DNA of 15,619 bases from Bacillota bacterium (GTDB lineage Bacteria; Bacillota; Syntrophomonadia; Syntrophomonadales; Syntrophomonadaceae), in NCBI GenBank assembly GCA_017861475.1, contig JAGFXV010000007.1, positions 1-15,619 on the forward strand, read 5' to 3'. This document shows, in pieces, positions 1 to 15,105 of this stretch (its first letter is position 1; each line of letters starts with the position of its first letter). The notes under the pieces were generated by a model that ran no database searches, was not told the DNA's origin, and saw only the letters and a list, made by a program, of their open reading frames with translations. The translations under genes were made by a program, and so were the position numbers.

Positions 1-1
1 G

Positions 2-481
2 GCCTATTTATATCTTCATCAAGCCGACATGATCGATCAAATATTTGCCTTCGATCATCTGACCATTCTGGATCATTCCGTCACCGTCAACAATGTTCCG
101 GAAGGCGACAGCTATCGCTGTAAATTTCATAGTAAAAATGGCGGCTGTCTGCTGGAACAGACCTGGCGCGAATCCATCTGCCGGCATTTTGTCTGTCCGG
201 GAATCGGCTGGTGGGAGGAATCTTCCCTGCAGAAGTGGAAAGAATACATGGAGCAGCTGACCGATCATGAAATCGCGCTGAACCAACGGTTGGCGGATGC
301 TTTGGATGCACAAGGATTAAGTCTGCGCAAGCCTGAATTAAGGGAAAAATACTTCTCCACCCTGATCGAATTATACAAAGAAGAAACCAAACAGACGCCA
401 GATTTTATAAGCCGCATGCCCGCGCAGCAATCCTTCCGGATTATTCGCCCGCTGCGTTTCAAGAAAGACTGGCAGCTTTAA
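2..481 (+). CDS. Cysteine-cluster protein, YkgJ-like (5' end off window)
   Basis: This is the 3' part of a gene. The frame is open from base 2 through the first ATG (29) with no stop, so the true start is probably left of the window. What is visible is about 159 residues, including four cysteines spaced as C-K-F-H-S-K-N-G-G-C, then C-R-H-F-V-C roughly 17 residues later. This resembles the YkgJ/UPF0153 family of small proteins thought to bind zinc or an Fe-S cluster through a C(x)nC...CRxFxC signature; the first cysteines of that signature may lie in the missing part. The C-terminal half is helical and charged, with no membrane segment. It ends 57 bases before the next gene's start, same strand, so the two may be co-transcribed. 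The family assignment rests on the cysteine pattern only. The function is unknown. Confidence 0.5.
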   Translation, partial: AYLYLHQADMIDQIFAFDHLTILDHSVTVNNVPEGDSYRCKFHSKNGGCLLEQTWRESICRHFVCPGIGWWEESSLQKWKEYMEQLTDHEIALNQRLADALDAQGLSLRKPELREKYFSTLIELYKEETKQTPDFISRMPAQQSFRIIRPLRFKKDWQL

Positions 482-524
482 CTGGCTCGCTTTTCTATTG
501 TTATAAAAGAGGAATAAATAAAAC

Positions 525-530
525 AGGAGG
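525..530 (+). promoter_or_regulatory. Shine-Dalgarno that fixes a TTG start
   Basis: A perfect AGGAGG lies 8 bases before TTG 539. The longest open frame begins with a GTG at 530, but that codon shares its first base with this motif and so cannot be the start. The site therefore argues for initiation at TTG 539 (or TTG 542). Confidence 0.75.
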
Positions 531-538
531 TGTTTCTA

Positions 539-1765
539 TTGTTGCCAATCGGCCCGCTGATGATCGAACATCGTTTGATCGAACAATTGATTGCGATTTT
601 GGTTGATCACGTAAAGAAAGCACCCGATGCCAAGCAGATCGATCTGACTCTGATCGATCGGGGCGTTGAATTTATGCGTCGATACGCCGATCGTTGCCAT
701 CATGGCAAGGAAGAGGATATCTTATTCAAGGCGCTGCAGGAAAAAGAATTGGACAGTACGTATAAGAATACTCTCGATGAATTAGTGTATGAACACAGCC
801 TCGCCAGAGAAGCAGTCAAAACCCTGGCTTTAGCCAGCGAAAAAGCTGCTGCCGGCGATGCCAACGGTTACGCCGACATCGTAAAAATGGTAGAGAAGAT
901 CGCGGCTTTGTATCCGCCCCACATTGAAAAAGAAGACAAGCACTTCTTCATTCCGGTGATGGATTATTTCAGCCAATCCGAACAAGAAGATATGATGCAG
1001 AAGTTCCTGGAAGCCGATCAGAAACTGTTGTATGAAAACTACTATCTGATGGTAAATGGGTTGGAAGAAATCAAACCCATGATCACAGCCGAAACTGAGG
1101 AGCCCGCTGTAAAAGCCGATCTATATGTATGTTCAGTATGCGGATTTATCTATGACCCCGCAATTGGGGATCCGGAGCACGACATTCCTGCCGGCACACC
1201 TTTTGACGAACTGCCTGCGGACTGGGTATGTCCTTTGTGCGGAGCCGGCAAGGACATGTTCAACCAGCAGGAAAAAGCGGTTGAAACTCCGGCACCGTCT
1301 GAAATCAAACCGCAAAAAACCGTCAAGGAATATCGCAGCAACGATATCATCGTTTATTGGTATCCCCATGATTGCTCCCATGCCGGCAAGTGCTGGGGAG
1401 ATCTGCCGTCAGTATTTGATATGGATAAACGTCCCTGGGTCAGTATATCCGGCAGCAGCCCGGAAGAAATCATCAAAACCATCGACAAATGTCCCACCCG
1501 TGCTTTGCAGTACAGCCTGCCGGAAGGTTCTGCCGTTGATCCCAATCTTGCCAAAGGGCCGGGGTCGAAAGACTATAAAGCAGATCTTGATAAAGCCGGT
1601 AAAATAAGAGTAATTAGAGATGGTCCGCTGTTGATCGAAGGCCCCAACCAGATCATCGGCATCAACAAGGAAATCATCGCGGAAGGCGATCGCTTTGTGC
1701 TCTGCCGCTGCGGCAAAACCAAAAATGCCCCCTTCTGCGACGGCAGTCACATTCCGGGACATTAA
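539..1765 (+). CDS. Hemerythrin-rubredoxin-YjdI-CDGSH four-domain iron protein
   Basis: A soluble 408-residue protein carrying four different iron-binding modules in a row. (1) Residues about 5-165: hemerythrin-like helical domain, with candidate diiron ligands H11, H54/H55 with E58/E59, H86, and H128 with E132/D133. (2) Residues about 195-241: rubredoxin, with C198-x2-C201 and C231-P-L-C234-G. (3) Residues about 265-325: YjdI/Fer4_19 domain, with C279-x5-C285, the [10 protein letters not shown] stretch, and C318-P. (4) Residues about 385-405: CDGSH [2Fe-2S] domain, with C389, C391, C400 and H404. The linkers near 180-195 and 245-262 are rich in P, E, K and A. Each domain is known alone or in pairs. 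Hemerythrins bind oxygen or NO, rubredoxins carry single electrons, and CDGSH proteins hold labile 2Fe-2S clusters. A role in oxygen, NO or peroxide detoxification or sensing is inferred, not shown. The start is TTG 539, placed by the AGGAGG at 525-530. A GC-rich hairpin follows the stop. Confidence 0.9.
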
Positions 1766-1820
1766 AAAACAGATTTGTTCATCCTTAATATATCTATACA
1801 GACAGAAATGACCAGTCTAA

Positions 1821-1842
1821 AGCCGGGTGAAATCGCCCGGCT
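1821..1842 (+). terminator. Probable intrinsic terminator after the iron-protein gene
   Basis: AGCCGGG (1821-1827) pairs with CCCGGCT (1836-1842). One more wobble pair and two Watson-Crick pairs could extend the stem inward. The stretch after it (TCGTTATTTCATT) is T-rich but not a clean T run, so termination efficiency is uncertain. It sits 56 bases beyond the stop codon, where a transcript end is expected. Confidence 0.6.
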
Positions 1843-2295
1843 TCGTTATTTCATTATAACGGTTTCAATAGAATGCATTAATCAATAAATAAAATGATGT
1901 AAGTTGATATCTTTCAGAAAATTTTGTCACTTTGATATGATATTTATGGTATGATTGTTATAAATGAGGATAATTTCTCCATTATAAGATCTAAATGTTT
2001 AAATACCTCGCTCAATTTAGTAAAAACATCCCTGATTACATAACCGATGAAGAACGAGTTTCAGTAGTTAATAAAATTTTATCTTTTGTCAAATCATTGA
2101 TATAATCAGATTCGCTTATGCCCCATCGCATAGCAATGCCTATATTGAGCTCCTTTTCCGTATCCCCCAAACAAGTTTTCTATAACCCTGACGATGACTT
2201 GAAGTATAACAATCACCTCATTGTATATCCCTAATTCAAGATTGTCTTAAATTAGTGTTTGTATCGATTGTAAATAATTGAATGGAGGAAATTGA
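1843..2295. other. AT-rich intergenic gap without a convincing gene
   Basis: About 450 AT-rich bases. Two short frames stand out but neither has a usable ribosome-binding site. The first is a 36-residue frame on + (1995-2105, ATG start). The second is a 47-codon open stretch on - (2036-2179) that includes MRWGISESDYINDLTKDK but begins without a good start. They overlap each other on opposite strands, so at most one could be real; a decayed gene is possible. No riboswitch, tRNA or transposon end was recognised. The last bases carry the GGAGG (2284-2288) that serves the next gene, and the operon's promoter should lie in this gap. Confidence 0.5.
1924..1952 (+). promoter_or_regulatory. Weak sigma-A-like promoter candidate
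   Basis: TTGTCA (1924-1929), a 17-base spacer and TGGTAT (1947-1952) form a partial match to the housekeeping promoter. An overlapping TTGATA (1932-1937) with TGTTAT (1956-1961) is a second option. In this AT-rich stretch such matches arise easily, and both would leave a leader of more than 300 bases before the operon, so this is only a candidate. Confidence 0.2.
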
Positions 2296-3087
2296 ATGAA
2301 TAATCATGATTTTGAACTTCAAGGACAGATTTTAAATCAAATTCCTACAACAGTGATAGCAGTTGACAAAGACTTTAAAATTATTTACGCAAATATTGCA
2401 GCAGCAAAAATGACTGGTGTTAAAAGTCAGGAAGACTTGCTTGGAAAGCATTGCTATGATTTTTCTCATAACAAACAATGCAGAACACCGGAATGTTGTG
2501 TATTTAAAGCCATGGAAGACGGGAAGATGCATTCCACTCGAGGTCAAACATCCTTTAGTGACGGTTCCATAGTATACATTGAACAGTCCTCAGCAGCTTT
2601 AATAGATAATAACGGCAATATTATAGGAGGTTTGGAATTTGTACTCGATGTTACACAAAGAGTATTGGACGAGGAAAGATTGGCGGAACAGAGCTACACC
2701 ATACGTGAAATGTCAACACCGACTATCAAACTCTGGGAAGGGGTTTTATTGCTCCCGGTAGTTGGTGTTATTGACTCTGATCGAGCGCAGCATATGATGG
2801 ACAGTATGCTCAATAAAATATTGGAAACCTCTTCCCGGGTTATCATTTTGGATATACATGGCGTTGCATCAGTCGATACGGCTGTGGCCAATCATATTAT
2901 TAAAATTACGAAAGCTACACGATTGATGGGATGTGAATGTTTGCTTTCCGGCATATCAGCTTCGGTAGCTCAAACAATTGTTCAATTGGGTATCGAAATG
3001 GGCTCTATAAAGACTACTTCAACTCTGAGTGATGCATTGGAAGAAGCCCTGGCAATCATTAACTTGGAAGTAATCTCTAAAAAGTAA
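2296..3087 (+). CDS. RsbR-like stressosome sensor scaffold (PAS-STAS)
   Basis: A 263-residue protein with an N-terminal PAS domain (about 12-125) joined by a short helix to a C-terminal STAS domain (about 143-255). The STAS part carries the RsbR family core: D-I-H-G-V-A-S-V-D-T195, then LMGCECLLSGIS and A-Q-T-I-V-Q-L-G-I. T195 falls where the phosphorylated threonine of the VDT motif lies in Bacillus RsbR paralogues. In the family, RsbR-type proteins form the stressosome with RsbS; the N-terminal domains project outward as sensors and RsbT phosphorylates the STAS core. The PAS domain contains four cysteines, C53, C62, C67 and C68 (HCYDF...CRTPECCVF), which could bind a metal cluster or respond to redox; this is inference. 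The start is ATG 2296 with GGAGG at 2284-2288. It is the first gene of a six-gene operon, with the next start 17 bases after its stop. Confidence 0.9.
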   Translation: MNNHDFELQGQILNQIPTTVIAVDKDFKIIYANIAAAKMTGVKSQEDLLGKHCYDFSHNKQCRTPECCVFKAMEDGKMHSTRGQTSFSDGSIVYIEQSSAALIDNNGNIIGGLEFVLDVTQRVLDEERLAEQSYTIREMSTPTIKLWEGVLLLPVVGVIDSDRAQHMMDSMLNKILETSSRVIILDIHGVASVDTAVANHIIKITKATRLMGCECLLSGISASVAQTIVQLGIEMGSIKTTSTLSDALEEALAIINLEVISKK

Positions 3088-3091
3088 TCAT

Positions 3092-3096
3092 GAGGG
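3092..3096 (+). promoter_or_regulatory. Shine-Dalgarno that selects ATG 3105 for the RsbS-like gene
   Basis: GAGGG lies 8 bases upstream of ATG 3105 and overlaps the earlier in-frame ATG at 3090. Because the upstream ATG has no site of its own, the downstream ATG is the better start. Confidence 0.6.
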
Positions 3097-3104
3097 CATT
3101 ATAC

Positions 3105-3494
3105 ATGAATAATCATTTGGATGAACAAGTTGTATACGGAAGCTTTATCGGCAACTGTTATATTTTAAATATTCAAGGCGAAATAGATGAAGTTTATTTA
3201 AAGCAATTATATGCGGAAACCTTTTTCATAATCGAACATAACGTTGATTTAAAGGGAACGATATTTGATTTTAGCAACATAAGCACTTTTGATTCGAATA
3301 TATTTATCTCTCTCAGAAATATATCCAAGACGATTTCACTTATGGGAATAAAAGTCATATGGATTGGATTAAAGCCGGGTGTTGTATCAACGCTCGTCGA
3401 TCTAAATGTTAAATCAGATGACATTAGAATAGCAGTGAATCTTCAACATAGTCTGTCTCTGATCAATTCCAAAGAATCTGACTTTCTACTTTAG
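3105..3494 (+). CDS. RsbS-like single-STAS stressosome scaffold
   Basis: A 129-residue protein made of a STAS domain alone, similar in size to Bacillus RsbS. The segment I-F-D-F-S-N-I-S-T-F-D-S64-N-I-F matches the phosphoacceptor loop, with S64 placed as the conserved serine of RsbS that is phosphorylated by RsbT. In the family, RsbS and RsbR build the stressosome core and sequester RsbT until signal-driven phosphorylation frees it. The sequence is more divergent than the RsbR-like neighbour, and the usual G-I/L-x-P-E-like turn is replaced by LKPGVV. The start is ATG 3105, preceded by GAGGG; an ATG at 3090 would add five residues and is less likely. It is located between the RsbR-like and RsbT-like genes, with 17- and 16-base gaps. 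Confidence 0.85.
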   Translation: MNNHLDEQVVYGSFIGNCYILNIQGEIDEVYLKQLYAETFFIIEHNVDLKGTIFDFSNISTFDSNIFISLRNISKTISLMGIKVIWIGLKPGVVSTLVDLNVKSDDIRIAVNLQHSLSLINSKESDFLL

Positions 3495-3510
3495 GAGATC
3501 GCAGGTTTAA

Positions 3511-3966
3511 ATGAAATATAGAAAAGTGACTGATAACGAAAATATAATTTCATTTAAAAAGCTTGATACCCGTACGTTCAAACTTTTGCAACCAATTGAC
3601 AATGAAGCCGTTGTCATTATGACCAGAAAGCTAGCAAAAAATGCTGGCTTTCAGCTTACTGACGAGGTAATGATCGCTACAGCGGCTTCTGAGTTGGCAA
3701 CTAATATTTTGCGGTATGCGCAACAAGGTGAAATAACCGTTACCATTATTCAGATAAATGATACACATCAAACCGGGATTGAAATTTATGCACAAGACCA
3801 GGGGCCGGGTATTCGAGACCTGCAAATGGCCATGAAGGATAATTACAGCACCTCAAAAATGAGTTTGGGGATGGGCTTGCCCAGCGTCGAGAGAATAATG
3901 GATGAATTTGAAATTGAATCAGAATTAGGCCATGGAACGCGTGTGCTGACACGGAAATGGTGCTGA
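3511..3966 (+). CDS. RsbT-like serine/threonine switch kinase
   Basis: A 151-residue GHKL-type kinase of the RsbT/RsbW/SpoIIAB class. The N box is A-S-E-L-A-T-N65-I-L-R-Y-A, the G1 box is D96-Q-G-P-G-I, and the G2/lid region is L119-G-M-G-L-P-S-V-E-R-I-M. All ATP- and Mg-binding positions appear intact, so an active kinase is predicted. In stressosomes RsbT phosphorylates the serine of RsbS and the threonines of RsbR, and the freed kinase then binds a downstream partner (RsbU in Bacillus). No rsbU is present here, so the partner may be the histidine kinase encoded two genes downstream. It is about 20 residues longer at the N terminus than Bacillus RsbT. The last bases overlap or abut the start of the phosphatase gene, which suggests translational coupling. 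Confidence 0.9.
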   Translation: MKYRKVTDNENIISFKKLDTRTFKLLQPIDNEAVVIMTRKLAKNAGFQLTDEVMIATAASELATNILRYAQQGEITVTIIQINDTHQTGIEIYAQDQGPGIRDLQMAMKDNYSTSKMSLGMGLPSVERIMDEFEIESELGHGTRVLTRKWC

Positions 3967-3968
3967 AT

Positions 3969-4556
3969 ATGAATCAATTTGATTATGGTATGGTAATGCG
4001 AGCATTGTTATTGGATGAGTCAGAGTGCGGAGATCTGGCAATTGTAAAAGAAGATAACCAACGATGCTTTCTGGCTTTGCTTGATGTTCTGGGACATGGA
4101 AAAAAAGCCAGAAAAGTTGCAATATCAGCCAAAGATTTTATTGAACAAAATTACCATAAAGACTTGGTAGAAATAATGAATGATTTGCATAATCATTTGC
4201 TGGGTACACGAGGAGCAGTCGCGGCGCTTATAAGAGTTGATATGGGTTCGGGAGAAATGAGCTATGTTGGAATTGGCAATATTGCTGTCAGTATATTTAG
4301 AAGAGAACAAATCAGATTGGTACCTAAAGACGGTGTTATTGGCTATATCATGCCAAGACCGGTGAAACAAGTTATTCCCCTTTGTCAAAAAGACATAATC
4401 ATTATGTTTTCTGATGGGCTAAGACAGCATTTTAATATTTCTGAATGTAGAGATTTGTTTTCACAGCCAGCCCAGAAAATTGCAGAAGAATTACTGAACA
4501 GATTATGGAAAGCCAACGATGACGCGTCGTGTATTGCATTTAAATATATCCCATAG
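3969..4556 (+). CDS. RsbX-like PP2C-family serine/threonine phosphatase
   Basis: A 195-residue phosphatase consisting only of a SpoIIE/PP2C catalytic domain, the size and form of RsbX. Metal-binding motifs are D39-V-L-G-H-G, M-F-S-D149-G-L, and N-D-D185-A-S near the end. RsbX resets the stressosome by removing phosphate from RsbS and RsbR, and its place directly after the RsbT-like gene fits this. The absence of an RsbU-type N-terminal domain makes a reset role more likely than an RsbU role. Two in-frame starts are possible: ATG 3957, which overlaps the previous gene by 10 bases, and ATG 3969, two bases after its stop codon. The latter is chosen because it gives the usual compact N terminus and leaves some upstream purine-rich sequence; the evidence between the two is thin. 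Confidence 0.88.
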   Translation: MNQFDYGMVMRALLLDESECGDLAIVKEDNQRCFLALLDVLGHGKKARKVAISAKDFIEQNYHKDLVEIMNDLHNHLLGTRGAVAALIRVDMGSGEMSYVGIGNIAVSIFRREQIRLVPKDGVIGYIMPRPVKQVIPLCQKDIIIMFSDGLRQHFNISECRDLFSQPAQKIAEELLNRLWKANDDASCIAFKYIP

Positions 4557-4578
4557 AGTATGAAAAGGGGTATTAGCA

Positions 4579-7260
4579 ATGATCAAAATGGGCGACTTAC
4601 TGATAGCTGATAAAAATTCCATTGTTAACGTCAGGAAGAAGATACGCCAATTGGCATTATCTTTAGGTTATGGAATATATAAATCTTCAAGGATCGAGGC
4701 AGCCGTATCAGAAATCTGTCATATCGTTTATGATGATGAGCGTCAGATATCAATTGCTGTCGGTATCGTACAAAGAGACAAACTGTATGGATTGATTATG
4801 AAATTTAGCGGAATAAATAACGTTCAAAACCTTTCATTCGGTGAATTGTTTTTTGATTCATTTGCAGTAAAGAAGATCGGAAGTGAAAATTACATAATTG
4901 AAGCTTTCAGTTGTTTGCCGGATCCAAACATTCTGCAGGATGAAAAATATATAGACAACGTTACAAAAAATTTAGTTTTACCAACTAGAACAGAGTTATT
5001 GTCTGATTTAAAAAAGAATAATGAAATACTTGCAGTACAATCAAAGGAATTACTAATAGCCAAAGAAAATGCAGAAGCGGCGACGAAAGCCAAATCAGAT
5101 TTTCTCGCTAACATGAGCCATGAAATAAGGACCCCAATAAATGCCATTATCGGACTTAACAGCCTTTTGGAAAAGACCGAGCTAAATCACAAACAGCTGG
5201 ATTATGTAAAGAAAATCGGAGCCTCCGCCAACAATTTGCTTGGAATCATTAATGATATCCTTGACTTTTCAAAAATCGAAGCCGGTAAGCTTACCATGGA
5301 AAATATTGAGTTTGATATTAATAAGGTATTGGACAGTATTACTGTTGCTCTTGGTGTAAGGGCTTTTGATAAAGGAATAGAATTCGTTGTCGTAAAGGCA
5401 CCGGATGTTCCTGACGTTTTAATTGGTGATCCGCTCAGGCTTGGTCAGATATTACTAAATCTGGCCAACAACGCAGTTAAATTTACCGATCATGGTGAGG
5501 TAATTGTTCGTATCAAACTGGAGAATATATCAAAAGACGACGCCACGATAGCTTTTTCAGTCGAAGACAGCGGTATCGGAATGACGCAGGAACAAATCGC
5601 GACCCTTTTCAATGCCTTTTCACAGGCGGATGCATCGACAACCAGAAAATACGGTGGTACAGGTCTTGGCCTGACAATTTCCAAAAACCTTATTGAAATG
5701 ATGGGTGGAAACATCAGGGTTGAAAGTGAGTTTGGCAAGGGCAGTAAATTTTCCTTTGATTTGAAATTTGAGATTTTCGAAAAAGAGCATAAGATACCTA
5801 AAATCTTTCCTGAAAGACTACGAGGTATGAGGGTATTGGTTATAGATGACAATAGTGCTGCGAGAGAAGTAATGGATGAATATCTGCAAGCATTTAATTT
5901 CGATGTTTCACTGGTTTCTACAGGATTCGAGGCAGTAAGTGAAATAAATGAAGATTTCAGTTTGATTATACTTGATTGGAAGATGCCTGGATTAAACGGT
6001 CTGGAAACGTGGAACAAAATAAAAGACAAGCTTGGGGCAAATGTTCCCTATGCCATTATGGTTACCGCATATGGAAAGAATGAAATCGCTGACCAGGCCA
6101 TACAGGAAGGTATCCAAAAAATTATGACCAAACCTGTAACACAATCAAGTTTGTTCAATGCAATTCTGGAAGTCTTTGGAGAAACAACGAATGAGGACAA
6201 AATCATTCAGGATAGCAAGACCATTTTGGGATTGGATGCAATCAGGGGAGCAAACATACTGGTTGTTGAGGACAATCAGATCAACCAGCAGGTGGCAAAA
6301 GAAATATTGGTAAACGAAGGCTTCCGGGTTGATATTGCCGATAACGGTCAAATCGCGGTGGAAATGGTTTTAAACAAATACTATGATTTAGTTTTTATGG
6401 ATCTGCAAATGCCGGTTCTTGACGGATACCAGGCTGCCGGGAAGATCAGATCAGAGAATCTTAAAGATTTGCCTATAATTGCTTTAAGCGCCGATGCCAT
6501 GCAAGGAACAAGGCAGCGGGTCGAAGCGGCAGGAATGAATGGTTACATCACCAAACCGATCGATCTTAAAGAAATGTATCGGGCTTTAATTAAGTGGATT
6601 TCTCCCGGTAAACGCGATATATATACAGTTAACAAAACCAGGCCGGAGGAAACATCTTTTGAATTATCTGCAATATTGACATCATTTGATGTAAATTCAG
6701 CCTTATTAAGGCTTGCCGGAAATCAAACATTATATCTCGACATATTGAAAAAATTTGAGATGAACTATTCAAATTTCACAGAAACAATAGAAGAATCAAT
6801 AATGTCCGGAGACACACAAACGTTGGAAAGGCAATTACATACATTAAAAGGGGTAGCCGCCAATCTGGGAGCAAACGAGATTCACTCTATTGCACAGGGT
6901 ATAGAATCAAAAGTGAAATCCGGGAAAGATATTCTGCAACCCGGAGAAATGAAATTACTTTATGAAAAGCTTGCATTAGCTATCGGGGAAATATCTCTGG
7001 TCAGTACCAGTGATGAAAAACCCGCTGCAAAAACTTTCAATGTGGATGAACTAGCCAATGAACTTGATGAGTTAATAATCCTTCTCGATGATTATGACAT
7101 AAAAGCTGAGGAAAAGATCAAGGAGATAAAAGAAAGCCTTATAAAACTTGGTTATTTAGAACAAACGAAACAACTAGAGCACGCAATCACAAACTATGAC
7201 ATTGATTGTGCATATAAGATTTGCACGACGCTTGTTAATGCTTTGCATGGCAGAAAATGA
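4579..7260 (+). CDS. Soluble hybrid histidine kinase with RsbT-like N terminus (HK-REC-REC-Hpt)
   Basis: An 893-residue cytoplasmic multistep phosphorelay kinase with no membrane segment. Residues about 8-85 align by eye with the RsbT-like protein of the same operon (R-I-E-A-A-V-S-E-I-C in place of its N box), but the N-box asparagine and the G1 DxGxG are missing, so this looks like a non-catalytic RsbT-type fold. A charged helical linker (about 138-172) leads to HisKA with S-H181-E-I-R-T-P. The HATPase has N-L-A-N-N-A-V-K-F-T (294-303), D-S-G-I-G-M (330-335) and G-G-T-G-L-G-L (359-365). Two receiver domains follow, with D466 and D608, each with the conserved T/S and K. The Hpt domain carries H754 in H-T-L-K-G, and a helical tail of about 70 residues completes the protein. 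The start is ATG 4579 with AAGGGG 8 bases upstream. Context suggests it takes its input from the stressosome and passes phosphate to the HD-GYP regulator 8 bases downstream; both steps are inference. Confidence 0.92.
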   Translation: MIKMGDLLIADKNSIVNVRKKIRQLALSLGYGIYKSSRIEAAVSEICHIVYDDERQISIAVGIVQRDKLYGLIMKFSGINNVQNLSFGELFFDSFAVKKIGSENYIIEAFSCLPDPNILQDEKYIDNVTKNLVLPTRTELLSDLKKNNEILAVQSKELLIAKENAEAATKAKSDFLANMSHEIRTPINAIIGLNSLLEKTELNHKQLDYVKKIGASANNLLGIINDILDFSKIEAGKLTMENIEFDINKVLDSITVALGVRAFDKGIEFVVVKAPDVPDVLIGDPLRLGQILLNLANNAVKFTDHGEVIVRIKLENISKDDATIAFSVEDSGIGMTQEQIATLFNAFSQADASTTRKYGGTGLGLTISKNLIEMMGGNIRVESEFGKGSKFSFDLKFEIFEKEHKIPKIFPERLRGMRVLVIDDNSAAREVMDEYLQAFNFDVSLVSTGFEAVSEINEDFSLIILDWKMPGLNGLETWNKIKDKLGANVPYAIMVTAYGKNEIADQAIQEGIQKIMTKPVTQSSLFNAILEVFGETTNEDKIIQDSKTILGLDAIRGANILVVEDNQINQQVAKEILVNEGFRVDIADNGQIAVEMVLNKYYDLVFMDLQMPVLDGYQAAGKIRSENLKDLPIIALSADAMQGTRQRVEAAGMNGYITKPIDLKEMYRALIKWISPGKRDIYTVNKTRPEETSFELSAILTSFDVNSALLRLAGNQTLYLDILKKFEMNYSNFTETIEESIMSGDTQTLERQLHTLKGVAANLGANEIHSIAQGIESKVKSGKDILQPGEMKLLYEKLALAIGEISLVSTSDEKPAAKTFNVDELANELDELIILLDDYDIKAEEKIKEIKESLIKLGYLEQTKQLEHAITNYDIDCAYKICTTLVNALHGRK

Positions 7261-7268
7261 GGTGAGTT

Positions 7269-8342
7269 ATGGTACATACGGTATTGATTGTAGATGATAA
7301 GGCTGAAAACATAGACATATTAAAAAGCATTCTCGGTGAAGAATATAATATAAAAGTAGCTATTAATGGGCAAATGTGTATAAAGGCAGCAGAAAAGACC
7401 ATGCCTGATATTATACTGCTCGATATAATGATGCCCGATATGAATGGATATGAAGTATGTACCAGACTGAAAGCCAACCCGATCACGCACAACATACCCG
7501 TTATATTTGTCACGACCAAAGACCATGAATTAGATGAAGCCAAGGGCTTTGAAGTTGGTGCTGTAGATTATGTCACCAAGCCGGTGAGCCCCTTGATTGT
7601 AAAAGCAAGAATAAGAACCCAGCTTGCGCTTAAAGATCAAAACGCAGAATTGGAACGCAAGGTTGCTTGCCAAACAAAGGAAATATATGAAACACGGCTT
7701 GAGATAATCAAAAGATTGGGTCTTGCCGCCGAGTTTAAGGACTTTCAAACCGGGCTGCATATTGAACGAATGAGCAAATATGTTTACTATATTGCAAAAG
7801 CTTACGGTCTAAACGAAACACATGCCAATTTGCTGCTTAATATTGCACCATTGCATGATATCGGCAAAATCGGGATACCGGAGCATATTCTATTAAAGCC
7901 GGGAAAGCTTACTGATGACGAATTTGAAATTATCAAAACACATTGCGAGATGGGTGCACAAATTATTGGTAATCATGATGAGGATTTGTTGAAAGCTGCT
8001 AAAATCGTTGCCATACAGCACCATGAGAAATGGAACGGCACTGGGTACCCATACGGATTATCAAAAGATAATATACATATATATGCCAGAATAGCCGCTG
8101 TTGCAGATGTTTTTGACGCCTTGTCAAACGAAAGACCATATAAACATGCCTGGAGTAATGAAAAGGTCATTGAATATTTAATGAATGAAAGCGGAAATCA
8201 TTTTGATCCGATGGTTGTCAACGCTTTCATTAAATGCATTGATAATATTTATGAAGTGAAAGAAAAGTTTAGTTATTGGAAAAGGGATACTCAGGAGAGT
8301 CTGTCCCGAACTTTGTGTAAAGTCCAAAACGATGCAAAATAA
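7269..8342 (+). CDS. REC-HD-GYP response regulator, predicted cyclic-di-GMP phosphodiesterase
   Basis: A 357-residue output protein. The receiver domain (about 1-120) has D9/D10, phosphoacceptor D52 in L-L-D-I-M-M-P, V-T-T81-83 and K104-P. A helical linker (about 120-148) joins it to an HD-GYP domain (about 148-335). That domain has H196-D197-I-G-K-I-G-I-P, H225, H251-H-E-K-W-N-G-T-G-Y-P261 and D280, so the metal-binding and GYP residues are all present and hydrolysis of cyclic-di-GMP is expected. The start is ATG 7269; a GAGGTGA lies across the preceding gene's stop, which points to coupled translation with the histidine kinase. It is the last gene of the stressosome operon and the only obvious output. 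Its phosphodonor is presumably the Hpt domain encoded upstream. A long hairpin follows. Confidence 0.93.
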   Translation: MVHTVLIVDDKAENIDILKSILGEEYNIKVAINGQMCIKAAEKTMPDIILLDIMMPDMNGYEVCTRLKANPITHNIPVIFVTTKDHELDEAKGFEVGAVDYVTKPVSPLIVKARIRTQLALKDQNAELERKVACQTKEIYETRLEIIKRLGLAAEFKDFQTGLHIERMSKYVYYIAKAYGLNETHANLLLNIAPLHDIGKIGIPEHILLKPGKLTDDEFEIIKTHCEMGAQIIGNHDEDLLKAAKIVAIQHHEKWNGTGYPYGLSKDNIHIYARIAAVADVFDALSNERPYKHAWSNEKVIEYLMNESGNHFDPMVVNAFIKCIDNIYEVKEKFSYWKRDTQESLSRTLCKVQNDAK

Positions 8343-8350
8343 GGTGTTAT

Positions 8351-8393
8351 TTTAAAGGGACAATTGACTATGTAAGTCAGTTGTCCCTTTAAA
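8351..8393. terminator. Long hairpin between convergent operons, probably bidirectional terminator
   Basis: A 19-bp stem with a single T-G wobble: 8351-8369 pairs with 8375-8393 around the loop ATGTA. The stem ends in TTTAAA on both sides, so it offers a T run to transcripts from either direction. It lies 8 bases after the HD-GYP gene and 75 bases beyond the end of the convergent proA, the expected position for a shared terminator. Confidence 0.85.
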
Positions 8394-8468
8394 CGCGGTT
8401 TATTCCCATAAAATGATCAATTGAAGATTGCCAGGTTTACGTGGCTCTCCTGTGAAACTGCAGTTTGT

Positions 8469-9728
8469 TTATCTAATCTGACCGTCGCCGTAAATTACAA
8501 ATTTGGTGGTAGTCAGTTCTCTCAAGCCCATCGGTCCGCGGGCATGCAGTTTCTGCGTACTGATCCCCATTTCTGCGCCGAATCCAAATACATTGCCGTC
8601 GGTGAAACGGGTCGAAGCATTGGCATAAACTGCGGCCGCATCCACCCTGGCCATAAATGTCCGCACCGCCGTATAGTTTTCGCTGACAATAGCCTCACTG
8701 TGACCGGTCCCATACTGGTTGATATGATCGATCGCTTCCTCCAGACTGTCCACAACCTTGACGGCCATGATCAGTTCAAGATATTCCGTCGCCCAGTCCT
8801 CCTCGGTGGCCTCAATCAGACCGGATACGATCCGGCGGGTTGTCTCACAGCCGCGGATCTCCACCCCGGCCGCCTGCAAATCAGCGATGATTCCTGGCAG
8901 AAATTCCTCAGCAACTTTTTTATGCACCAGCAGCGTTTCTGCCGCATTGCATACCGAAGGCCGCTGCACCTTGGCATTGTGAACGATGGGCAGGGCTTTG
9001 GCATAATCGCCGTATTCATCAATATAGACATGACAATTACCCATGCCGGTCATGATCACCGGTACGGTAGCATTTTCAAGCACTGCTTTTTTCAAGCCTT
9101 TGCCGCCGCGGGGAATCAACACGTCGAGATAATCATTCATCTTCATCATAAAAAGAACTGCCTCGCGGTCTTCACTGTCCACCAGTTGAATGGTGCCTTC
9201 CGGCAGGCCGCATTCCATCGCCGCTGCAGATATGATGCGGGTGATGATCCGGTTGGAGTTTAAGGCTTCCTCTCCGCCGCGCAGAATGATGGCATTGCCT
9301 GACTTAAGGCAGAGACTGGCAGCGTCGGCAGTTACATTGGGACGCGATTCATAAATAATGCCGATGACTCCGAGGGGCGTTCTGATCCGGCCAATATCCA
9401 GCCCGTTGGGACGGTGGTGCATTTCCAGCATCTCACCGATTGGATCGGGCAAAGCTGCAATTTCTCTTAATCCCTGAGCCATATCCCGGATACGGGTTGG
9501 GTTTAGCGCCAGCCGTTCAAGCAAGGCTCTGGTCAAACCCTGTTTCTCGCCTTGTTCAAGATCGATTTGATTGGCGGCGATGATCTCTTCCGTCTGCTTT
9601 TCCAGTTGCTCCGCCATATTATATAAAGCTTCATTTTTCATATCCGTCCCGGCGGTAGCTAAAAAGCGGGATGCAAGTTTTGCCTTGCGGCCCTGTTCCA
9701 GTAAAATGGTTTCCATTTCCCTGTTCAT
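8469..9728 (-). CDS. proA: Gamma-glutamyl phosphate reductase (glutamate-5-semialdehyde dehydrogenase)
   Basis: A 419-residue NADPH-dependent enzyme that reduces gamma-glutamyl phosphate to glutamate-5-semialdehyde, the second step of proline synthesis from glutamate. It has the ProA signatures G-V-I-G-I-I-Y-E-S-R-P-N-V-T (about 120-133), L-K-S-G-N-A-I-I-L-R-G-G (141-152), the catalytic cysteine C260 in Q-R-P-S-V-C-N-A-A-E-T, and the C-terminal F-T-D-G-N-V-F-G-F-G-A-E-M-G-I-S-T-Q-K-L-H-A-R-G-P-M-G-L block. Length is normal for the family. ATG 9728 has an excellent AGGAGG 9 bases upstream. It lies 12 bases after proB, so the two form an operon. On the opposite side it converges on the stressosome operon. 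Confidence 0.97.
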   Translation of the reverse strand: MNREMETILLEQGRKAKLASRFLATAGTDMKNEALYNMAEQLEKQTEEIIAANQIDLEQGEKQGLTRALLERLALNPTRIRDMAQGLREIAALPDPIGEMLEMHHRPNGLDIGRIRTPLGVIGIIYESRPNVTADAASLCLKSGNAIILRGGEEALNSNRIITRIISAAAMECGLPEGTIQLVDSEDREAVLFMMKMNDYLDVLIPRGGKGLKKAVLENATVPVIMTGMGNCHVYIDEYGDYAKALPIVHNAKVQRPSVCNAAETLLVHKKVAEEFLPGIIADLQAAGVEIRGCETTRRIVSGLIEATEEDWATEYLELIMAVKVVDSLEEAIDHINQYGTGHSEAIVSENYTAVRTFMARVDAAAVYANASTRFTDGNVFGFGAEMGISTQKLHARGPMGLRELTTTKFVIYGDGQIR

Positions 9729-9740
9729 GCTGCTCTCCTC

Positions 9741-10871
9741 CTACAAACACTTTACCCAGAGATTGTCCCTATGGATGACTTCATCATAGTCCTTGGTGCC
9801 CAGTATTTTTTCGATTTCACTGGATTTTTGCCCGGCGATCTGGCGGATCTCACTGCTGCTGTAATTGGCCAGGCCCCGGGCGATCTCCTTGCCGACCGTA
9901 TTAATGACGCCGATCACCGTACCCCGGTCAAAATCACCTTCAACGGTCACCACGCCGGATGACAGCAAACTTTTGCCCCGGTTCAGCAAAGCCAGTTCCG
10001 CGCCATGGTCGACCTGGATCTGCCCGTGTTCCGCCGAGCCAAAGGCCAGCCATTTTTTGCGGGAAGGCATTTTTTCTTCGCGCGGCACAAAAACCGTGCC
10101 CAGTTCTTCTCCGGCTATGATCCGGCGAATGATATTCCGCTCGGCTGAGTTGGCAATGACCATCGGGATACCGGCGGCCATGCAATTGCGGGCTGATTTC
10201 AGCTTGGTCAGCATCCCGCCGCTGGCAAAGGTTGTGCCCCGGGACACCGCATTGGCTTCCATTTCATCGGTCACTTCGTAGACTTCATTTTGCCGGCAGG
10301 CATTTTTATTGGTGCGCGGATCACTGTCATACAGTCCGTCTACATCAGACAGAATAATGAGAAGATCGGCGTTTATGATCCCGGCCACCATGGTGGACAA
10401 GGTATCGTTGTCCCCGATTTTGATCTCTTCTACCACCACCGTATCATTTTCATTGATGATGGGAATGACCTGCATGTTTAGAATGGCCAGCAGGGTGTTG
10501 GTCGCATTCAAATAGCGGATCCTTTCATCCAGGTCTTCACGGGTCAGCAAAACCTGAGCTACCGTCTTGCCGTAATCAGCGAAAAACTTCTCATACATAT
10601 GCAGCAATCGGCCCTGCCCGATGGCTGCCAAGGCTTGCTTTTCCGGCAGCGTCTTGGGAATTTTCTTCATTCCCATTCTGCTTGCTCCGGTTCCGATCGC
10701 ACCCGAGCTGACCAATACCACTTCAATATCCCGGTTATGCAAATCAGCCAGTTCCCTGACCAGTCTTTCCATGCGTTCCAGATTCGGCTGCCCGTTGGCA
10801 TGGATGAGGGTACTGGTGCCAACCTTCACGACCAGCCGTTTGATATCTTTAAATTCTCCCCTGATATTCAT
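9741..10871 (-). CDS. proB: Glutamate 5-kinase with C-terminal PUA domain
   Basis: A 376-residue kinase that phosphorylates glutamate to gamma-glutamyl phosphate, the first and normally proline-inhibited step of proline synthesis. The amino-acid-kinase domain shows V-V-K-V-G-T-S-T-L near the N terminus, L-V-S-S-G-A-I-G, N-E-N-D-T-V, I-L-S-D-V-D-G-L-Y and G-G-M-L-T-K. The last roughly 100 residues form a PUA domain (D-H-G-A-E-L-A-L-L-N-R-G-K-S-L-L-S-S-G-V). The open frame reaches a GTG at 10883, but that codon overlaps the GGGGTGG that serves as ribosome-binding site 8 bases before ATG 10871, so ATG 10871 is chosen. It is followed at 12 bases by proA and preceded by obg, probably one transcript. 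Confidence 0.96.
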   Translation of the reverse strand: MNIRGEFKDIKRLVVKVGTSTLIHANGQPNLERMERLVRELADLHNRDIEVVLVSSGAIGTGASRMGMKKIPKTLPEKQALAAIGQGRLLHMYEKFFADYGKTVAQVLLTREDLDERIRYLNATNTLLAILNMQVIPIINENDTVVVEEIKIGDNDTLSTMVAGIINADLLIILSDVDGLYDSDPRTNKNACRQNEVYEVTDEMEANAVSRGTTFASGGMLTKLKSARNCMAAGIPMVIANSAERNIIRRIIAGEELGTVFVPREEKMPSRKKWLAFGSAEHGQIQVDHGAELALLNRGKSLLSSGVVTVEGDFDRGTVIGVINTVGKEIARGLANYSSSEIRQIAGQKSSEIEKILGTKDYDEVIHRDNLWVKCL

Positions 10872-10879
10872 TATATTGT

Positions 10880-10886
10880 CCACCCC
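10880..10886 (-). promoter_or_regulatory. Shine-Dalgarno placing the proB start
   Basis: GGGGTGG on the minus strand, 8 bases before ATG 10871. It covers the upstream in-frame GTG (10883), which is therefore an unlikely start. Confidence 0.6.
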
Positions 10887-10915
10887 AACTGTCTTATCTA
10901 TTTGTTTATTGTTTA

Positions 10916-12184
<1,269 letters not shown>

Positions 12185-12640
12185 TCACCTCTTATCAATG
12201 CGAATCTGGCGGGATTCATCCGCCCAGCTGTCGCAGCTGAAATACATTTCTATAGCGGTTTCTTCCTCGTGGATGGAGATATATAAAACAGGATCGTCGT
12301 CCTCTCCTGGCGGAATATCCTTCTGCAAGACAATGATACTGTTTACCGGTTCATTGTTGTCTTTCAGATACCGGGCCGACTTTACATCCAGATCATCATA
12401 CACAAGTATGATTCCCATATCTCTGGCCTTTAACAACTGTTCATAAAAATACAGGGCATCTTGCGGAGCGACCGATTCAAAGATGATCCTTTCCTGATTG
12501 AGCTGGTTGATAATTTCCTTGATATAAGATTTTATCTGTTCCTCCCAGCCCAATTCCAGATATCCGCTGATCACCTGCAGATGATTGGCATAATCATGCC
12601 GCACTCTGCGCAGCAAATTCACCATTTGTCCGGCCTCCAT
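12185..12640 (-). CDS. Spo0B-like sporulation phosphotransferase
   Basis: A small (151-residue) protein with a Spo0B-type alpha-helical dimerisation domain. The motif R-H15-D-Y-A-N-H-L-Q-V-I-S-G-Y-L-E-L-G matches the phosphorylatable-histidine helix of Spo0B and of the SPOB_a-type histidine kinases; H15 is the predicted phosphoacceptor. The C-terminal half is a short alpha/beta region without an ATP-binding N box or GxG, as in Spo0B, which relays phosphate from Spo0F to Spo0A. Its position directly upstream of obg and downstream of rpmA is the Spo0B position in Bacillus. It is shorter than Bacillus Spo0B (about 190 residues). Of the possible starts (TTG 12664, ATG 12643, ATG 12640), ATG 12640 has the best spacing, 7 bases, from AAGGGGG. 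A phosphorelay role is inferred; in many Clostridia Spo0A is activated directly by kinases. Confidence 0.75.
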   Translation of the reverse strand: MEAGQMVNLLRRVRHDYANHLQVISGYLELGWEEQIKSYIKEIINQLNQERIIFESVAPQDALYFYEQLLKARDMGIILVYDDLDVKSARYLKDNNEPVNSIIVLQKDIPPGEDDDPVLYISIHEEETAIEMYFSCDSWADESRQIRIDKR

Positions 12641-12647
12641 CATCAAA

Positions 12648-12655
12648 CCCCCTTC
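12648..12655 (-). promoter_or_regulatory. Shine-Dalgarno of the Spo0B-like gene
   Basis: GAAGGGGG on the minus strand. It lies inside the longer open frame that begins at TTG 12664, and 7 bases before ATG 12640 (4 before ATG 12643), so the TTG start is unlikely. Confidence 0.55.
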
Positions 12656-12713
12656 AATAGGCAAAAGTCACATGTTCATTTGTTATAAACATAAGCTTAT
12701 TCCTTATAATAGC

Positions 12714-12738
12714 AAAAACCCCTGAAATACTCCAGGGG
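12714..12738 (-). terminator. Intrinsic terminator after rpmA
   Basis: On the minus strand CCCCTG and CAGGGG form a 6-bp GC-rich stem (12738-12733 with 12724-12719) with an 8-base loop, followed at once by TTTTT (12718-12714). It separates rplU-rpmA from the Spo0B-like-obg-proBA genes, which therefore likely have their own promoter or depend on read-through. Confidence 0.8.
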
Positions 12739-12773
12739 CCCAGTTCGATGATAAAAGCAAATCTCTGTATCAA

Positions 12774-12822
12774 AAAGTCCGCTCAATAAACGTACTTTAG
12801 GTACGCCTCAATCGCGGACTTT
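12774..12822 (-). repeat. Nested palindrome, possible terminator or interspersed repeat
   Basis: A two-level hairpin. The outer arms AAAGTCCGC (12774-12782) and GCGGACTTT (12814-12822) pair perfectly, and the inner arms CGTAC (12791-12795) and GTACG (12801-12805) pair around a 5-base loop. The interior sides are 8 bases each and contain the same hexamer, CTCAAT, in direct orientation (12782-12787 and 12807-12812). On the minus strand the outer stem ends in a T run, so it could work as a terminator for rpmA in addition to the one 36 bases further on. The layered structure is more elaborate than a normal terminator and may be a mobile or repetitive intergenic element. Confidence 0.65.
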
Positions 12823-12876
12823 CATCATGCTTTGATCTTTACTCTTGTCATCGATCTGGTTTATTAAACCTAAAAT

Positions 12877-13149
12877 CTATACGGTAGCGCTTTCGTCAAC
12901 CGGATATACGCTGACTTGTTTTCTGGTTTTGTCTTTTCTCTCAAATTTGACTTTACCGTCAACAACCGCAAACAGAGTATCATCTCCGCCGATCATAACG
13001 TTGTTGCCCGGATGGATCTTGGTTCCTCTCTGCCGAACCAGAATGTTGCCGGCTCTTACTACTTGACCATCATATCTTTTGACGCCCAGTCGTTTGGATT
13101 CACTGTCGCGTCCGTTTCTTGTACTGCCAACACCTTTTTTATGAGCCAT
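12877..13149 (-). CDS. rpmA: 50S ribosomal protein L27
   Basis: A 90-residue L27, recognised by [22 protein letters not shown] and the [11 protein letters not shown] block. The flexible N-terminal tail reaches the peptidyl-transferase centre of the 50S subunit. The open frame continues upstream to an ATG at 13170, but this runs through a GGGAGGTG that is the ribosome-binding site for ATG 13149; the shorter form also fits the conserved MAHKKG start. Unlike many Firmicute L27 proteins it has no leader ending in two phenylalanines for cleavage by Prp. It is co-transcribed with rplU, 87 bases upstream. Confidence 0.97.
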
Positions 13150-13236
13150 GATTACACCTCCCAGTGTCACTTTATAATAAGGCTTACAATTGTTAATTGA
13201 AAAATAATATTCCCAGTGTAGATCTGGATTTATTAT

Positions 13237-13548
13237 TTAACCTTCGATCTTTTCGATCAAAAGTCTGGTATAGGCCTGACGATGACCCTGTTTTTTGCGT
13301 TCATTCTTGCGTCTCTTGTACTTGTAGACGGTAATTTTTTTGCCCCGTCCTTGTTCCAGCACAGCAGCCGTAACTTTTGCACCTGCTACCAAAGGATTGC
13401 CGACCTTGGTTCCATTGTCATCCTTAAGCATTAAAACCTGATCCAGGGTCACTTTGTCCCCGGCTTCAGCTTGCAGCTTTTCAACTTTGACCATTTCCCC
13501 TTCGGTTACCTTGTACTGTTTGCCACCTGTTTGAATAATTGCGTACAT
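13237..13548 (-). CDS. rplU: 50S ribosomal protein L21
   Basis: A 103-residue L21, recognised by [14 protein letters not shown] at the start and [22 protein letters not shown] near the end. It binds 23S rRNA in the large subunit. ATG 13548 has GGAGGTG at a good distance; the longer frame to 13563 runs through that site and is rejected. It is the first gene of a two-gene ribosomal operon with its own promoter and structured leader. Confidence 0.97.
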
Positions 13549-13642
13549 ACTACACCTCCACATCTTTCAGACTCGCCGGTCATCAGGCAGGCTCAGCCAT
13601 TTTAAAACCTGGACCGTGCGGTTGCAAAAACGTGCAACCCAC
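13549..13642 (-). ncRNA. Structured 5' leader of rplU (L21-leader-like)
   Basis: The roughly 94-base untranslated leader starts with a strong hairpin, GTG-GGTTGCA / TGCAACC-(G)-CAC (13642-13616, loop of 6), followed by an A/T stretch, a second G/C-rich region (GGCTGAGCC, then ACCGGC) and the GGAGGTG of rplU. Firmicutes often carry an autoregulatory L21 leader in exactly this place, and this is the likely class. The assignment rests on position and hairpins and not on a covariance-model match. Confidence 0.55.
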
Positions 13643-13647
13643 AGCTT

Positions 13648-13676
13648 AGACTATCACAATTTAAAACTGCCGTCAA
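13648..13676 (-). promoter_or_regulatory. Sigma-A promoter of rplU-rpmA
   Basis: On the minus strand TTGACG (13676-13671), a 17-base spacer and TAGTCT (13653-13648), preceded by TG-A, make a good extended -10 promoter. The -35 box begins two bases after the rng stop codon. Transcription would begin near 13641, at the base of the leader hairpin. Confidence 0.7.
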
Positions 13677-13677
13677 G

Positions 13678-15102
13678 TTACGTACTGTGCAGATTATATT
13701 CTTCAATACCCATATTGCTGTTCTCTTCAAATCTGATCTTTTTGCCGGTTTTTTTGCGGATATAATTGAGATTGGTATCTTCGTTCATTATGTATTGCAA
13801 CAGTTGCGGATGAGCTTCGCAGACGATCTCCTCGCTCTCCAGATATCCCATATTGGCCAGCTTGCGTTTGACCTCGCAGGCCAGGGCAAAGAGATTAATG
13901 GTGCGGCCTCGGCCATGACAGGTCATGCATTCGTCCGTAAATATCTCGGAAATGCCGTAACGGGATTTTTTACGGGTCATTTCCAAAAATCCCAGCTGGG
14001 TCATACCCATGATACGGTTATGCGCTTTGTCTTTTTCCAGTTCCTGACGCAGGATGGAAATAACATTATCTTCGTTATTCTTGTCCTGCATGTCAATAAA
14101 ATCGATCAGGATGATCCCGCCAATACTGCGCAGCCGCAGCTGCCGGGGTATTTCCAGCGCCGCCTCAAGATTCAGCTTGTAGACGGTTTCTTCAAAATTA
14201 TCTTTGCCGGTAAACTTGCCGCTGTTGACATCGATCACGGTCATGGCTTCGGTTACGTCAAAAATCAGATAGCCGCCGCTCTTGAGCCATACTTTGCGTC
14301 GCAAAGCCTTGCGGATATCCTTTTCCACACCGTATTTTTCGAACAGATCGCCCTCTTCATATTGCACACTGGGCAAAAAAGAGGTGTTCTTTTTCATCGC
14401 AATAAGATCGATTTTCTCTTTAATTTTGAGATTGTTGGTAATGACCCGGCGAATATCAGCATCCAGATAATCCCGCAAAGCGCGTTCGATGACATCGATA
14501 TCCTCATAAATCAGGCTGGGTGAACTTTGATGGGTGAAACGGGTCTGAATATCCTGCCAGATTTTCAGCAAGTAGTTTAATTCCGCCAGAATTTCATTTT
14601 CCCCGGCTTCCATACAAGCGGTTCGTAAAATAACCCCTATATCCGCCGGTTTGTTATCCTCGATCAAGCTGCGCAGCTGATTTCTTTTCTGATTGCCGAC
14701 AATTTTTCGGGATATGGAGACTTCATGCTGAAACGGCAACAGCACCAAAAGGTGACCGGGGATGGTTATGTCGCAGGTGACCCGGGCTCCTTTTTCTGAG
14801 AAGGCTTCTTTCTTGACCTGCACCATGATCTCCTGACCACTTTTTAGCAGCTGATCAATTTTTTTGCCTTTGCGGTTGCCCGGCCCCAAAACATCTCCAA
14901 CATATAAAAAAGCATTTTTATTGAGGCCAATATCGATAAATGCACAGGAAAGCCCCGGCAGCACATCCTTTACCTTGCCTTTATAGATGTTGCCCACGCT
15001 TTCATCCTGGTCAGCCCAGAAGACTTCCACCAAACGGTCATCTTCAACAATGGCCACTCTTGATTCCCATGGATAAATCTCGCCGATAATGTCCCTTACC
15101 AT
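13678..15102 (-). CDS. rng: Ribonuclease G/E family endoribonuclease
   Basis: A 474-residue enzyme of the RNase G type, without the long C-terminal scaffold of RNase E. Features in order: N-terminal S1-type RNA-binding region (about 38-115, beginning V-G-N-I-Y-K-G-K-V-K-D-V-L-P-G); catalytic DNase-I-like domain with the two metal-binding aspartates D291 (V-I-D-V-N-S-G-K-F) and D334 (I-L-I-D-F-I-D-M); zinc-link C392-M-T-C395-H-G-R-G-R; and a small C-terminal domain. The family trims 16S rRNA 5' ends and decays mRNA. The start is ATG 15102 with GAGGGTG upstream, 3 bases after the stop of the preceding gene, so the two are co-transcribed. The neighbourhood (DUF2344, rng, rplU, rpmA) is a common clostridial order. 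Confidence 0.95.
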   Translation of the reverse strand: MVRDIIGEIYPWESRVAIVEDDRLVEVFWADQDESVGNIYKGKVKDVLPGLSCAFIDIGLNKNAFLYVGDVLGPGNRKGKKIDQLLKSGQEIMVQVKKEAFSEKGARVTCDITIPGHLLVLLPFQHEVSISRKIVGNQKRNQLRSLIEDNKPADIGVILRTACMEAGENEILAELNYLLKIWQDIQTRFTHQSSPSLIYEDIDVIERALRDYLDADIRRVITNNLKIKEKIDLIAMKKNTSFLPSVQYEEGDLFEKYGVEKDIRKALRRKVWLKSGGYLIFDVTEAMTVIDVNSGKFTGKDNFEETVYKLNLEAALEIPRQLRLRSIGGIILIDFIDMQDKNNEDNVISILRQELEKDKAHNRIMGMTQLGFLEMTRKKSRYGISEIFTDECMTCHGRGRTINLFALACEVKRKLANMGYLESEEIVCEAHPQLLQYIMNEDTNLNYIRKKTGKKIRFEENSNMGIEEYNLHST

Positions 15103-15105
15103 TCA

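Follow-up and report, generated by a model that had tools for sequence, protein, structure and literature searches.

A minimal stressosome gene cluster followed by a hybrid histidine kinase with an RsbT-like N-terminal domain that lacks ATP-site motifs

The window analyzed here is a 15,619-nucleotide stretch of a Bacillota genome of the family Syntrophomonadaceae (contig JAGFXV010000007.1, positions 1 to 15,619), in which six plus-strand open reading frames (ORFs) at 2296-8342 lie tightly packed between two hairpins. In order, and with gaps by coordinates of 2, 16, -10, 22 and 8 bases, they encode an RsbR-like PAS-STAS protein (2296..3087), an RsbS-like single-STAS protein (3090..3494), an RsbT-like serine kinase (3511..3966), an RsbX-like PP2C phosphatase (3957..4556), a hybrid histidine kinase (4579..7260) and a response regulator with receiver (REC) and HD-GYP domains (7269..8342). 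These identities had been assigned in an earlier reading of the DNA without database searches (the sequence-only reading), and ORFs, Pfam matches and relatives in the Protein Data Bank (PDB) confirmed them.

The first four genes encode a predicted minimal stressosome of RsbR, RsbS, RsbT and RsbX. RsbR consists of a PAS sensor (residues ~11-123) and a STAS domain (147-247) according to Pfam. In sequence searches the STAS domain has as a PDB relative 7o0i_B (166 bits), which we take to be RsbR of the Vibrio vulnificus stressosome, while Listeria RsbR chains (6qcm and 7b0u among them) score about 109 bits. Threonines T195 and T227 occupy both RsbT sites. RsbR is not of the YtvA blue-light type, scoring 100 bits against the NCBIfam YtvA cut-off of 250 bits. 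Its PAS domain has cysteines at 53, 62, 67 and 68, of which C53, C62 and C67 (window 2452-2499) are conserved in 9/9 aligned PAS-type RsbRs (from the window and loci L028-L031, L033, L035, L036 and L038); a metal or redox site is possible. RsbS has RsbS itself as a PDB relative (2e-10, sequence search). Its target serine is S69 from the listed ATG and S64 from the ATG at 3105, which is the probable true start since GAGGG is seen by eye just 5' of it; counted in this way, the phosphosites proposed earlier (S64 and, at an RsbT site, T195) were right. RsbT (Pfam HATPase_c_2; PDB relative SpoIIAB, 1e-6, sequence search) has intact N, G1 and G2 motifs. Thus, the RsbRST core is represented by an RsbR STAS domain with two threonines, RsbS with its serine and RsbT with its ATP motifs, and a single-domain PP2C RsbX (Pfam SpoIIE/PP2C; PDB relatives 3zt9, a SpoIIE-type chain, 3e-17, and RsbX, 6e-10) directly 3' of RsbT completes an RSTX module. 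The Bacillus and Listeria SigB operon also has RsbR, RsbS, RsbT and RsbX but differs in its adjacent RsbU, RsbV, RsbW and SigB, none of which turned up when the window's genes were identified (no search was aimed at SigB itself); for RsbU, RsbV and RsbW this bears out what had been stated before. In the assembly itself (77% complete), the STAS family PF01740 has three members: RsbR, RsbS and one in a 608-residue frame.

The last two genes encode a two-component system. According to Pfam, the kinase comprises HisKA, HATPase_c, two Response_reg domains and Hpt, with motifs SHEIRTP from residue 180 (HisKA), ILDWKMPG from 464 (REC1), FMDLQMPV from 606 (REC2) and HTLKG from 754 (Hpt). The response regulator (Pfam Response_reg and HD_5) has its phospho-Asp in LLDIMMP from residue 50 and both phosphodiesterase motifs, HDIGK from 196 and GTGYP from 257, and is predicted to break down cyclic di-GMP (c-di-GMP). 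Judged by these motifs, the catalytic parts of RsbT, the kinase (HisKA, both REC, Hpt) and the REC-HD-GYP protein look intact, and kinase-REC-Hpt-REC is the standard phosphorelay order. With 15 GGDEF matches above the family cut-off in the genome, synthesis of c-di-GMP is likely.

The most informative part of the kinase, overlooked in the sequence-only reading, is its N-terminus. RsbU_N (PF08673) was not found there, with no Pfam match and an hhalign E of 0.2 to RsbU_N. Residues 1-115 (4579..4923, plus strand) have instead the sequence homology and predicted fold of the SpoIIAB/RsbW/RsbT serine kinase family. We aligned 27 RsbT proteins, 10 RsbX proteins with an N-terminal RsbT domain (T-X fusions) and 17 kinase N-domains, four of which are near-duplicates. 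The N-box Asn is kept in 27/27 RsbT, 10/10 T-X and 0/17 kinase sequences, the G1 Asp in 27/27, 9/10 and 0/17, and the two G2 Gly positions in 27 and 27 of 27, 10 and 10 of 10, and 4 and 2 of 17, respectively; G1 is mostly deleted from the kinase domains. The first half of the RsbT fold is kept, with a helix carrying R19 and K21 and a second helix around S44. The R19 column is Arg in 17/27 RsbT, 7/10 T-X and 12/13 kinase sequences and presumably corresponds to a SpoIIAB residue known to make contacts. Beyond the domain, a conserved joint PTRTELLSDLKKNN (residues ~135-152; 4981..5034, plus strand) connects it to the kinase helix; within the joint, Glu139 is the same in 15/15 sequences and the last Asn in 11/11 aligned. 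From this homology, the predicted fold and the lost ATP motifs, we read the N-terminus as an RsbT-derived pseudo-domain and not as an RsbT kinase. In a tree built from 50 sequences over 117 columns (RsbT, T-X and kinase N-domains), the kinase domains branch among the RsbTs; two origins are possible (those of L066 and L069 lie beside the RsbT of L069), the best split support being 62, and we make no claim on this point.

The same arrangement recurs in other genomes. When genomes were scanned with the STAS domain of RsbR as a query, 18 loci were obtained, from which we excluded L042 (contig end), L043 and L044 (a lone STAS domain, no RsbS or RsbT seen) and L038 (chimeric). In 14/14 interpretable loci, a histidine kinase with the same N-domain lies 3' of the stressosome genes (12 by direct comparison, L040 and L045 by profile). 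In nine of them (L028-L035 and L037, from Fibrobacter, Acetobacterium and Firmicutes metagenome-assembled genomes, MAGs), the gene after the kinase encodes REC-HD-GYP with HDIGK and GxGYP kept in 9/9; the contigs of L036 and L039 end within the kinase. The sequence-only reading had proposed a neighborhood search for stressosome genes followed by a histidine kinase and HD-GYP and had described the combination as apparently uncommon; these nine loci show that it is not unique, as do the HisKA-HATPase-REC-REC-Hpt kinases behind RSTX in Thalassotalea (L040) and Vibrio maerlii (L045). This kinase architecture is also found in Fibrobacter L028 (Pfam), whereas the kinases of Acetobacterium L030 and the Clostridia MAG L037 have an additional PAS domain and that of L041 is HisKA-HATPase only. 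The L041 locus (9626-13574 of a 127-kb contig, a Methanomicrobia archaeon by its bin label) has R-S-T-X, a 409-residue pseudo-RsbT kinase and a REC protein that stands alone. In L031, L032 and L036 (Acetobacterium, Clostridia), we saw no ORF for RsbX between those of RsbT and the kinase. RsbX and RsbR are both split in L034, as is RsbR in L037.

This recurrence bears on whether the N-domain does anything at all. It could be a functionless relic, on a kinase that is only co-transcribed and responds to something else; the lost catalytic motifs and a large sequence drift (18-42% identity to the window) speak for this. We regard it as very improbable, since the fold and the joint are kept across phyla, with K21, S44 and E139 invariant, and kinases with this domain were found only beside RST genes: in 3/3 matches among 398 genomes, the window included, and in 14/14 loci of the RsbR-started search. 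S44 is also the sole invariant serine available to another explanation, by which RsbT phosphorylates the kinase transiently, for example on a Ser or Thr of the N-domain, and the RsbT-like fold is incidental. Such phosphorylation was proposed for V. vulnificus, where direct binding of RsbT to the kinase D1 was not detected (PMC9237108). S44 lies in the second helix within an N-box Ser-Glu pair shared with RsbT and is thus better read as structural, which makes this explanation improbable.

To place the kinase among other stressosome outputs, we classified 52 loci of the phylum drawn by an RsbS search and a profile of the kinase N-domain; the sample is uneven, L076 was dropped as the same locus as L022, leaving 51, and L097 and L107 were counted as having RsbT. 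The outputs were RsbU_N-GGDEF in 10 loci, another helical N-domain with GGDEF in 20, other GGDEF in 2, an RsbU phosphatase in 6, an RsbU_N kinase in 1, a pseudo-RsbT kinase in 2, a histidine kinase with neither domain in 4 and none clear in 6. These results suggest at least two routes by which effectors connect to the stressosome, through a domain that RsbT binds or through one that resembles RsbT. T-X fusions occur in 18/51 RST loci, L019, L021, L022, L025, L066-L070 and L073 among them. The other helical N-domain of the cyclases near RSTX is ~95 residues long (L019:9833-10618, L020:6550-7341, L021:6783-7610 and 17 more), is unnamed by Pfam in the three tested (L019, L020, L021) and is weakly similar to RsbU_N (hhalign 8.9e-4). 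In L068:3250-5550, a 766-residue protein 5' of RsbR has an RsbT-like start (E 7e-19) and a long unmatched remainder. In L107:2503-4665, the RsbT match is in two pieces ~1.7 kb apart in an otherwise complete RST locus.

RsbT is described as placed on the STAS shell (PMC9237128, PMC12154155), and RsbX, which acts on STAS proteins, frequently has an RsbT domain as well. Both are most simply explained together if domains of the RsbT type serve as tags that dock proteins on this shell. The gene identities, the N-domain's homology and predicted fold, its loss of ATP motifs and its recurrence at RST(X) loci are computed here; from them we infer a docking partner, a direction of control, a phosphate route and an effect on c-di-GMP as follows. 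The kinase probably docks on the stressosome through its dead RsbT-shaped domain, and a four-step His-Asp phosphorelay would end in a c-di-GMP phosphodiesterase. The dead domain would sit at the place of RsbT on the RsbS/RsbR STAS surface. Once the PAS sensors of RsbR perceive a signal, RsbT would phosphorylate RsbS and RsbR, and docking of the pseudo-RsbT domain would change; this change would reach the dimerisation helix via the conserved joint and switch kinase activity. Phosphate would then pass from the HisKA His to REC, to Hpt and finally to the receiver of the response regulator, c-di-GMP would be lowered, and RsbX would reset the STAS proteins. More tentatively, catalytically dead and sometimes live RsbT domains, fused to histidine kinases, to RsbX and now and then to other proteins, could be a general client-docking tag that brings the enzyme itself to the STAS shell. 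The stressosome would then be a scaffold acting directly on docked clients, and RsbT release just one of several output modes.

Several observations weigh against docking of this kind. For these kinases it is drawn from sequence and a predicted fold. Searching PDB sequences with a profile of the domain gave no match at E 10, and Foldseek gave only three matches at E 0.001. Vibrio-type N-domains compared to RsbT directly gave E 0.0088 and 0.11 and are linked to it only through other kinase domains and the fold. The ATP lid is lost, so the docking surface may be different, and at each of the two G2 positions a minority of kinase domains remains Gly. Among the surveyed loci, RST-linked kinases without the N-domain are short in L025, L026 and L073 and 485 residues long in L067, and the L111 kinase carries RsbU_N instead (Pfam 4.5e-9). 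Finally, since dimers can form between GHKL domains, the partner may be RsbT itself.

In that case the RsbT-like domain would pair with free RsbT released on stress and so activate the kinase, and release of RsbT is indeed the described output step in Gram-positive bacteria (PMC9237128, PMC12154155). Such pairing seems unlikely to us, since interaction tests between VvRsbT and VvD1 were negative (PMC9237108), although the Vibrio N-domain compared here is that of V. maerlii and not of VvD1, RsbT binds the four-helix domain and linker of RsbU and not another RsbT (PMC12143880), and T domains fused to RsbX suggest STAS docking. The negative VvRsbT/VvD1 test also bears on the sequence-only reading, in which a missing interaction between RsbT and the kinase would have counted against a stressosome wired to a phosphorelay. 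A kinase that mimics RsbT is expected to meet RsbS and RsbR, so non-binding to RsbT would not refute the wiring. That reading is partly supported: it stands in its gene identities and its precedents in V. vulnificus and Moorella and needs correction on how singular the combination is and on its choice of this test.

RSTX modules with two-component genes acting on c-di-GMP are already known. In V. vulnificus, rsbRSTX is followed by a two-component sensor kinase and a predicted c-di-GMP phosphodiesterase (PMC10014275, PMC9237108), and the window shares this order; it differs in having PAS and not globin in RsbR and REC-HD-GYP as the output. In that species, losing either RSTX or D1 had similar phenotypic effects, with lower fleQ transcription in both cases (PMC10014275), which fits a stressosome that activates the kinase and does not only restrain it. 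For globin-coupled RsbR, eleven downstream types are described, phosphorelays included, and RsbU_N was not detected in most of them, V. vulnificus included (PMC9237108). The window kinase is of the Vibrio type, a REC-REC-Hpt hybrid kinase 3' of RSTX, as seen in comparison with V. maerlii and Thalassotalea; the V. maerlii kinase shares both the domain order and the pseudo-RsbT N-domain. A plasmid tblastn search with the V. maerlii N-terminus matched 1105 records, and 18 of the 20 listed span a kinase-core stretch only. Moorella thermoacetica likewise couples a stressosome to c-di-GMP, and same-phylum genomes have RsbU_N-GGDEF behind RSTX (L023, L024, L027). In M. thermoacetica, however, RsbT meets an RsbU_N-GAF-GGDEF cyclase that makes c-di-GMP (PMC12143880, PMC4976288), whereas the window is without RsbU_N and has a phosphorelay and a phosphodiesterase instead. 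RsbU_N kinases and cyclases as stressosome targets are treated in PMC12143880. RsbU_N kinases beside rsbT, such as that of L111, are histidine kinases as stressosome targets too, but their N-domain is a four-helix target of RsbT whereas that of the window is RsbT-like. In L111:3586-6957, an RsbU_N kinase, a REC protein and a REC-HD-GYP protein with an RsbT-like C-terminal end follow R, T and X.

In the literature searched, which covered few subscription papers and some sources in part, we found no description of an RsbT-like domain on such kinases. The link from stressosomes without SigB and RsbU_N to kinases is only hypothesised in PMC9237108. If the domain is a docking tag, it would supply this missing link for Vibrio-type stressosomes and would exemplify a duplicated kinase that became an adaptor. 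The RsbT-derived domain offers a sequence-based rule by which stressosome clients can be predicted, and a dead copy of the switch kinase built into the next kinase suggests a route for wiring sensors to new outputs.

The upstream edge of the cluster is a terminator-like hairpin (1820..1843, plus strand; 10 pairs, 7 of them GC) 3' of the upstream gene, and the downstream edge is a 17-pair hairpin (8353..8391, strand undefined) where the HD-GYP and proA genes converge, in a folded stretch of -29.1 kcal/mol. The sequence-only reading had named internal promoters and terminators separating RSTX from the kinase genes as counterevidence. Signal counts were at chance level (terminator-like sites, 6 vs 4.3 +/- 2.1 in shuffles; promoter-like sites, 26 vs 25.1 +/- 5.5), and the sole plus-strand terminator-like site within the cluster is a weak one at 5347-5363. 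One transcript for the six genes is likely.

The cluster's neighbors encode a hemerythrin-rubredoxin protein, proA, proB and obg. The cassette is low in GC relative to them: its six genes have values of 0.32-0.41, compared with 0.49-0.52 for the upstream gene, proA, proB and obg and 0.44 for the remainder of the window (12179-15619). It is also lineage-specific within the genomes compared. In the same-genus genome G001, the DNA match to the window stops at 1770 and resumes at 8467, with one 198-residue gene between; in another, G002, a different gene lies 5' of proA, and RsbS was not found in either genome. The slot 5' of proA (1770-8467) is thus a variable site whose content differs in G001 and G002. 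Identity to Fibrobacter L028 is 61% for R, 59% for T, 54% for the kinase and 66% for HD-GYP, and to Acetobacterium L030 it is 61, 56, 43 and 43%, respectively; RsbX is slightly closer to L030 (45%) than to L028 (44%). The high identity to Fibrobacter suggests that the cassette may have moved between phyla. The upstream gene (530-1765) encodes a four-part protein of hemerythrin, rubredoxin, Fer4_19 and CDGSH domains (Pfam), and its match in G001 covers residues 195-410 only, in a 232-residue ORF.
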